Shown piece after piece: positions 3,001-23,031 of a stretch of 24,260 bases of DNA. The notes under the pieces are model-generated. The model searched no databases and was not told the DNA's origin. It was given only the letters and a program-made list of their open reading frames with translations. The stretch is from Ectocarpus siliculosus (lineage: Eukaryota > Sar > Phaeophyceae > Ectocarpales > Ectocarpaceae). A program made the translations under genes and the position numbers. Numbering within the stretch: position 1 is the first letter of the stretch; each line of letters starts with the position of its first letter. The DNA is taken from positions 1,509,131 through 1,533,390 of the forward strand of contig FN649734.1 in NCBI GenBank assembly GCA_000310025.1, read 5' to 3'.

Positions 3001-6000
3001 CTCAGATGCTTTCGTTGCTATGCATGTCATGCTTCTAAGTCGCAAACACCTCACGTTTGTTATATATTTTTCCCCTCTTGTCGCCAGGACGATCCCTCTT
3101 CGCGGCGATGGGCCTGCCGCTAGACGACGACCTCCCTCCTCTCGTAGCCGGTGGACTGCTCTGCGCGGCGTGGGCTTGGGGTAAGGGTCATGTTCTCCTC
3201 TGCCGTATCGTCTCCTCTTATATATCTTACATTTTGGACCTTTGTTTTTTGTTTTTCTTTGAAGAGATTCGTTGGGAACGGTTACACTCGATCGGCCCCG
3301 GAATTGGGTCCGGGTTGAGCCGAATGGATGAAGCAAGACGGTTGGTGCGGAATAGTAAGATAGTGACTGATCTTTGTATGGACAGGTTAGCGCTAGAATG
3401 CATGCAGAGTTTCTTTGTAAGGAGAGGCTAGCGGTAGAGTGACAAGCCGCTTGGTAGGGAGAGGTTGGCGGTAGAATTCCCGTCTCCGATATGTTGAGCA
3501 TGCCAGCAGCCTGTTTTGTCGCCTCTTTGGGCTGTAGCGATCACCCTGCCCCCCCGAACACCTCGTGTATTGTAGCTCCCGCGGTGTTGTGTAGTGTGGA
3601 TGAGATGAGTTGCCCCCGCCACGTTACATGTCCACTATTGTCATGGTAGCGGCGTGAGGAACTCTGCGGCTTAGGGCCGTGCGGGCTAGACGGCGATATG
3701 TACGACGTGGGGGTTCCGTGTTTAAATCCAGAACATGGATCGCGCTGCTGCGATGCCCCCGGTCGAAAACGAAATTTCTCAAGAATTTCGGTGGTTTTCT
3801 CAAAGTGGGCAACAGGAACAATAATACGTGTCCTCAAGTCCCCCCCCCCCCCCGCCCTCGTCTCTGTCTCCGTCCTTTCGAGGACGCGTGGTCAACAGCC
3901 TTAAAGCTAAGCTAACGCATATACCCCACCCGTCCCCCGCACGTGCGTTATTTTTTTTTTCGGCTCAAGCTCTCTCGGCGCTGATCCGGCTGCAAGTGGC
4001 TGCCGGACAGCACCGCCGCCTTTTGTGCAACGCCCTAATGCTTGCAGGTACGGAGTCATGGTTACTGGTGTCTGCCTTGCCAAAGATCAAAGCATTATCA
4101 AGCGGTATCGTGCTTAGTGCTCGTTTGTCCAATCGTCGAGCGCTTTGGTCTTTGCCCACAGCCGCAATAAAATCAGGACGATATCGTTTTTTTTCGGTCT
4201 GGTGTGGTTGGAGATTGTTTTCTCGTAGTGGTAAAGTCGACGCTCTTGCCGTTTGCAGCAGTCCTCGTTCCTCTTCCTTTTTCGTGCAGCGCGTTTTTCA
4301 ATGTTTGTTCGATGTCATGTTATATCCGCCCAACTTCTGTGTGGTGCCACCGATCACTAGCGAGCACTCACGGCCTGCTGTTGGTACTGTAGGACGTCGA
4401 CACGCTCGCGGTGGCCCTTCTTTTACGGTCCACTTAAGAAATGGTCATCATGGTTTCTTTTTGGTTTACGAATTTTTTTTGGAAAGTGCTGCCGAACGTG
4501 GCAGTCCTCGCTTCGTCAAATACCGTACGTCCGCGGCAAGAGAATAGCTACTGTGGCACACATCGCGCTGTGTCTCTAATACTGAAATAGCAGAAGTCCA
4601 TGCTACCTTTTGACCATTCACCGAGTTTATGTCCACCGCTTCGTTAGTAAACCACCGCCGCCGCCGCCGCCGCCGCTGTGGGCGCTTTCTTTTCTCGCGT
4701 CCGTGGCGCACCGCGGTCGACTGACTCTTCTCTCTCTCTCGCTCTCTGTCTGTCTGTCTGTCTCTCTCTCTCTCTCTCTCTCTCTCTCTCTCTCTCTCTC
4801 TCTCTCTGCCTCACCACCTACCATACACGTTTTATTTCCCCACCATCATGATCATCATGATCATGAATCCAGGGAAGTGGTTCGTGATCGGCGCCCTGCT
4901 GGTGGGCGCCTTGCCCGGCCTGACGGGGCTGTTGGTCCACGACGCCCTTCGAGGGCCTCTGCCCCCCACCGAAGAGACCGCGGCCCTCACGTGGGGCAAG
5001 ATCTGGGCGCTGGGCCTAGTCTGCGTCAAACTCTGGGCGAGGTACAGTATACTAGTATCCATCTACGAAGTCTTACGGCTCGCCTCCTCGAAACAAGTAA
5101 AATCAAGTGGGGAGAGCAACCGTGGCCCACGGCAATCTATAGTACTTATCTGCTGACAATGAATTAGGCCACCCGGCGGAGCTATGATCCGCGGCGGGGT
5201 CTGTCCGTATTTGTGCTTGTTGCGGGTTTCCTCGGAGTTTTTTTTTTTTTTTCCGCAGCCTTGCTTTCCTGGAATGTTGTGCCGGTTCTTTTTTGGCTGT
5301 GTTGCTGTGTGATTTTGATTGGTTAGGAAGATCGAGCTGTGTCTACGTCCCCAGCACGCAACGTTTTCGGAGGACTTTCACTCGGTCGTGGTGGCATGTT
5401 ACACAGGAATCCGGAAATATCCCCGCCGATTTTTTTTTTTTTTTTGTGACGGTGGGGTGGGAGGGCGTCGAGATGATTTGTTCGTCAGTTCTCACTTGTG
5501 ATGGATCTTGCAGCAACAGTTCATAAGCACAGAGCAAAAATCCACGCCACCGTTGCACGCCGCGGCATTGCTGCACAACCTCTCCCGGTGGCCAGCCTGC
5601 TTTGTTCTGTGATTGATGCGGACTGCCGGTTGTGCAGGGCGTCACGGCTTAGTATTGTCTTTTCGCCTCGGGAGCTTTGTTTTGTCAACATCGAACCGCC
5701 TCCCAGGTTAACCCCAATCAGCCCCTATTTTCCCGAAGGACTCTTGCTGCTTGTCAACATTGAATTCCCTCCTAGGTTATCCGCAGTCAACCCCCATTTC
5801 CCCAAAGGCGTGTTGGTGTCTGTCAACACTGAATCCTCTCCAAGACCATCCGCAAACCCGCAAACATCACCCTTTCCCCCCATTTTTTGAAAGGTGCGTG
5901 CTGGCGGGGGCGGTGAGGGACGAGGCGTGGCAAGGACGTCTTCGGCGCTTGAGAGAGAATGGCTTCCGAGGAGTGGACTTCAAGTTCACCATGCTAGAGG

Positions 6001-22839: not shown

Positions 22840-23031
22840 CTGTCGAAGTCCAGTTCACCGTTCATTGGGTTTCGGTGGAAATAGCGTCAGAAAAGTGCAC
22901 CTGCTGTCATACCATTGCATCAGTTCATCATGCGTGTCGTGCGGTGGTGTGAGTGTCAGAAGGCGGCACCTATCGTCAGGGCAAAGGTCAGTTTAGTTCA
23001 CTATCAACTTTGGTTCGTGGCGAACGTCAGA
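22827..23031 (-). repeat. Degenerate tandem repeat over the acceptor of the first TTLL exon in the window
   Basis: On the plus strand gtcaga starts units at 22827, 22886, 22955 and 23026 (spacings 59, 69 and 71). The units also share a gt(a/g)cac-ct motif, a ttca patch and a ggtgg/cgtgg patch before the next gtcaga. On the gene's strand unit 1 is the real acceptor and exon start (AG before GTACATTTCTGAC). Units 2 and 3 carry AG before GTGCACTTTTCTGAC and GTGCCGCCTTCTGAC. Unit 4 retains only the exon-like part. Confidence 0.72.

Follow-up and report, generated by a model that had tools for sequence, protein, structure and literature searches.

Duplicated acceptor segments in a 24-kb window of a probable brown-alga genome, set against the local background of duplications

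Duplication of acceptor segments in the window (the whole stretch of DNA analyzed here, 24,260 nucleotides, C9:1509131-1533390 in a genome of 189.5 Mb and 492 contigs) is a real but modest observation. An earlier note on this DNA had described four exons with decayed copies of their own acceptor segment and had proposed that their position at intron-exon borders was the property that they share. The four cases are uneven in quality, and two of them had been overstated. Local duplications are common in this region, in exons, introns and intergenic DNA alike. A bias toward acceptors is not supported by our sample, with which a moderate bias remains compatible. Ordinary local DNA duplication is probably what explains the cases.

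Results

The four exons do fall in three genes, as had been claimed. The first gene of the window is MARCHF6/Doa10-like, with a PF23113 match on its joined C-terminal exons (E 3.6e-09) and an upstream piece that has a RINGv match (E 8.8e-15). On the minus strand lies a gene of the tubulin-tyrosine ligase (TTL) family (PF03133, E 7.1e-14, on two joined exons), and the middle gene, which holds exon 11987, had no Pfam match above the cut-off. The EsV-1-7 family (PF19114) has at least 150 matches in the genome, 150 of 880 candidates having been scored, which points to a brown alga; this family is expanded in brown algae. One intron of the MARCHF6-like gene contains a dispersed repeat (2815-2925, plus strand) with at least 43 genome matches including itself. 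The 42 other matches listed are 83-91% identical (a lower bound, as 40 of 1224 candidates were scored), and by eye similar sequence lies near -14150 and -14508.

To score the cases, 60 bases around each acceptor were aligned to 250 bases on either side (450 for 11987) with low-complexity sequence masked, and the null was taken from 2000 dinucleotide-preserving shuffles. Two of the four cases exceed the shuffled scores weakly or not at all, a comparison that the earlier note had itself named as a possible refutation. Decayed acceptor copies stand at 11987 and 6945, are weak at the 5894 border and marginal at 22839 (Table 1). Of the three tandem arrays with 60-85 bp spacing that had been described, the one before exon 5894 is firm, the one at 6945 reduces to a single duplication and the one at 22839 is weak.

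Table 1. Features of the four acceptor loci, numbered from the first nucleotide of the window.
Feature	Position	Strand	Evidence or remark
Tandem array, period 69, 2.3 copies	5683..5841	+	Intron before exon 5894; TRF score 178, 76% matches
Third, more decayed unit, reaching exon start 5894	5821..5905	+	Unit 2 against unit 3, score 21
Exon, MARCHF6/Doa10-like gene	5894..6000	+	Frame joins next exon, ...FTMLE|VCFPLL
15-mer CGCAAACCCGCAAAC, a doubled 8-mer	5851-5865, 6820-6834	+	Tails of two neighbouring introns
Decayed upstream copy of exon 6945 acceptor segment, with CACAG|GTATGT	6858..6886	+	Score 17, 1/2000 shuffles
Copied acceptor segment of exon 6945	6928..6954	+	Matches 6858-6886
Exon, MARCHF6-like gene	6945..7073	+	Frame joining, PF23113 match
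Intron-tail stretch matching 12253-12276	11850..11872	+	Score 14, 17/2000 shuffles, these scored without the mask used on the observed pair
Acceptor segment and first exon bases, exon 11987	11979..12009	+	Score 25 against 12352-12382, 0/2000 shuffles
Copy of the 11987 border in next predicted intron, 373 bp downstream	12352..12382	+	Score 25
Acceptor segment, exon 22839, TTL-family gene	22827..22874	-	Score 12 against upstream copy
Marginal upstream copy of the 22839 segment	22886..22939	-	Score 12, 47/2000 shuffles

Before exon 5894, the first two units of the array align with a score of 35 over 67 bp. The border itself is another matter: with masking it scores 8, no better than shuffles (1695/2000 reach it), and in targeted unmasked comparisons it scores 13 against the end of unit 2 (13/2000 shuffles) and 9 against the end of unit 1 (169/2000). 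At exon 6945 there is one copy, offset by 70 bp upstream, and two further comparisons yielded nothing beyond poly-T similarity and a match scoring 10. Coding frames are consistent with splicing at both acceptors. The gene-finder model ended exon 5894 at 5912 and started exon 6945 at 6877. At 22839, the six unit-to-unit scores range from 8 to 12.

A genome search turned up no further copy of the loci 5894, 6945 and 22839. Because each has a single genome match, these three look locally made, with no mobile element involved. The earlier statement that the cases are not copies of one mobile element thus stands, the 11987 region adding only a single region of diverged similarity, on contig C2. The companion statement that repeat sequences differ between loci is not entirely correct: loci 5894 and 6945 have CGCAAACCCGCAAAC in common. 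This word occurs four times genome-wide, and its reversed control word has one genome match. Independent random duplication does not explain its presence at both loci.

The copy of the 11987 border is strong and spans the border, yet it lies downstream at an offset of 373 and forms no tandem array of 60-85 bp. The intron tail at 11850-11872 may have been copied in the same duplication. The C2 locus matches 12326-12390 (intron tail of the downstream copy) at 81% and then 11986-12130 (exon of the upstream one) at 73%, joined in one copy. This arrangement is in keeping with the doubling of a border in the window. For this locus alone, partial duplication of an exon within a gene family, with no border duplication as such, is a serious though less than even prospect: the joined intron tail and exon on C2 speak for it, whereas the downstream copy in the window keeps only about 30 bp of the exon, and the C2 sequence, which lacks an AG at the matching border, could itself be a decayed fragment.

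Local duplications were then measured over about 193 kb of readable sequence. Among 50-mers without N in their flanks and with at most 20 of 50 bases masked, 290/9285 (3.1%) had a local copy scoring at least 16, vs 1/3096 shuffles (0.03%). High-scoring segments within the window fall in predicted intron interiors, in intergenic DNA and in a coding repeat, and include 1350-1450, 3350-3450, 7090-7390, 10430-10510, 15190-15290 and 20370-20430. In Ectocarpus, the distribution of tandem repeats is reported to be relatively even across site classes (PMC12477816). At 1356-1481 on the plus strand, a predicted intron holds a clean minisatellite with a 24-bp unit (5.2 copies, 97% matches).

Outside the window, exon predictions were supplied by a home-made gene finder. 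Because its models are imperfect, border counts were limited to exons with a coding score of at least 5; positions with N in the flanks or with more than 30 of 60 bases masked were excluded, here as well as in the window counts and the TTL-family scans given below. In a first count, with a flank of 300, any coverage allowed and the window taken in, scores of at least 16 were reached by 3/73 acceptors, 3/70 donors, 4/101 intron-interior points and 9/141 exon-interior points. When the match had to span the border, with a flank of 450 and outside the window, the same threshold was reached by 3/64 predicted acceptors, which are of mixed quality, by 2/61 donors, by 7/188 points in intron interiors and by 15/247 in exon interiors. 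Lowering the threshold to 14 gave 5/64, 2/61, 11/188 and 20/247, respectively. There was no clear acceptor excess in this outside sample, either against intron interiors (Fisher P 0.72; 0.56 at 14) or against donors (P 1.0). The rates being alike at acceptors, donors and intron interiors, the sample gives the outcome that the earlier note had named as counting against its proposal, and position does not emerge as a special property. At a true rate of 3 in 19, and provided that all predicted acceptors were real, the chance of finding 3/64 or fewer would be 0.006.

Of the three outside acceptor matches, two belong to a block of near-identical repeats that the gene finder takes for coding; the one at -14150 is doubtful, as an earlier gene model starts the exon at -14088. 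In L006, near-identical tandem repeats with predicted coding status form a block at about 7900-8300 (C9 at about 1447900-1448300), inside a stretch with long open frames that may be a transposon. A motif search found no clear branch-point motif upstream of 74 predicted acceptors.

Within the window, spanning matches of at least 16 were found at 3/19 hand-placed acceptors (3089, 6945 and 11987) and at 0/18 donors. Eleven of these acceptors are placed exactly on AG|, seven are off by 1-2 bases and the one at 594 by about 8; eight of the donors are off by 1-2 bases and one is GC. Against 3.08% of 6000 random positions, 3/19 has a nominal P of 0.02. The match at 3089, which is outside the four cases of the earlier note, is borderline, scoring 16 or 15 depending on the run, and is partly exon against exon; without it the count is 2/19 (P 0.11). 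At a threshold of 12, 5/19 acceptors compare with 7.2% expected (nominal P 0.01), and the comparison of acceptors with donors gives a Fisher P of 0.23. Because the window was chosen for this very feature, 3/19 is no proof of an acceptor bias.

Exons of the TTL family provided a further sample, 24 of 29 homology matches being examined. None of the 24 reached 16 at its best-scoring AG, which may differ from the true acceptor (in L030 it differs from the apparent one) and was scored with no limit on masked bases. In L030 the third-ranked AG scored 21, and in L048 a duplication scoring 14 spans the second-ranked AG. A scan of the 24 loci found duplications of at least 14 in eight, that of L030 adjoining the exon start; as background, 19/2090 points taken every 10 bases in these loci had a spanning match of at least 16. 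At L030 (C13:2116850-2117400, minus strand), the early part of a TTL exon (bases ~14-53) recurs in decayed form 122 bp upstream; this copy lies within the intron and contains a stop.

Discussion

Ordinary local duplication would account for the cases as follows. Slippage, unequal exchange or repair would duplicate DNA throughout a repeat-rich and intron-rich genome. A duplication covering an intron end and an exon start would be tolerated because one complete, spliceable border survives beside the intact body of the exon, and the extra copy would become neutral intron and decay. Four such places in one window would then be an extreme draw from a common background, together with the selection that comes with looking for patterns. 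Slippage had been among the options listed in the earlier note and is the one that we favor, with unequal exchange, as the presumed source; tolerance and neutrality are likewise presumed. Like intronic minisatellites and slippage duplications in general, the duplications of the window are of local origin, a second genomic copy was not found, and similar ones occur in introns and intergenic DNA. They differ in that a few of them extend as far as an exon border or across it.

It had been suggested that no named feature class covers such repeats. Repeats across exon borders are, however, known as mirages. They have been described in amphioxus; reported unit sizes are 10-72, 60, 108 and 150-160 bp, and many copies retain AG/GT signals (PMC3087553, PMC3902484). 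Mirages are local tandem copies of an intron end and an exon start, as the cases in the window in part are, and the reported unit sizes bracket the 69-70 bp seen here. They differ in that the units of amphioxus BflGb6 are given as 81-100% identical, compared with 76% matches in the best array of the window, and in that BflGb6 unit number is stated to vary between haplotypes, whereas the window is known from one assembly. The mirages of PGBD5, described as imperfect, are closer to the window cases than those of BflGb6. Tandem border-spanning copies are clear at 6945, with one copy, and weak at 22839 and at the border of exon 5894. The array at 5683-5841 has several units of like length (69 bp), 6945 has a single copy, and no such series was seen at 11987 or 22839. 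The 11987 case is unlike mirages in not being tandem. Cases 5894 and 6945 look like imperfect mirages, and what we describe would be at most additional examples of a feature already known. From what is probably a brown alga, the window thus contributes no more than two or three mirage-like examples. For border duplications, no title among the matches listed for the brown-alga literature dealt with them.

It is less easy to accept that intron-exon boundaries are prone to minisatellite-like tandem duplication through a mirage-type process, as in amphioxus. The similar anatomy of 5894 and 6945, with a spacing of 69-70 bp up to or over the acceptor, the duplication adjoining an exon start in the TTL-family paralogue L030 and the 3/19 acceptors of the window all point in that direction. 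We nevertheless consider such a process unlikely given the lack of excess at acceptors or donors outside the window and the absence of any high score at the best-scoring AG of the 24 TTL exons. A brown-algal process favoring short tandem duplication at acceptor borders, independent of that in amphioxus and combined with exchange of segments between neighboring introns, which would bear on the presence of CGCAAACCCGCAAAC at both loci, appears decidedly unlikely as well. If acceptor enrichment were true, it would offer a testable route for intron lengthening and for shifts of exon borders in an intron-rich genome. The local background measured here provides a yardstick for claims of this kind.

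The earlier note had raised selection for alternative acceptors, and the copies might persist because they serve as alternative or dual-specific (recursive) splice sites. In human genes, AGGT sites are reported to be capable of dual-specific use (PMC10809524), and the upstream copy at 6945, CACAG|GTATGT, scores 2.0 as acceptor and 7.1 as donor with home-made matrices. The copies are diverged, though, and splicing to any of the seven AG sites that were tested upstream of exons 5894, 6945 and 22839 would cause a frameshift and bring in a stop, either in the added stretch or in the first 60 bases of the exon (phase assumed for 22839). We regard this reading as very improbable.

Least credible of all is the suggestion that tandem duplication of an AGGT proto-splice site created or enlarged the introns, with the copies as footprints: AG|GT is present at three of the four acceptors and is retained in the upstream copies at 6945 and 22839, but no donor-acceptor direct repeat was found in 14 hand-placed plus-strand introns (the TTL-gene intron being left out), where the donor and acceptor borders of one intron are about as alike (mean 6.9, maximum 9) as borders taken from two different introns (mean 6.3, maximum 13).

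Among the splice signals of the middle gene, exon 11987 has an apparent GC donor at 12118 on the plus strand (CCGAG|GCAAGC).
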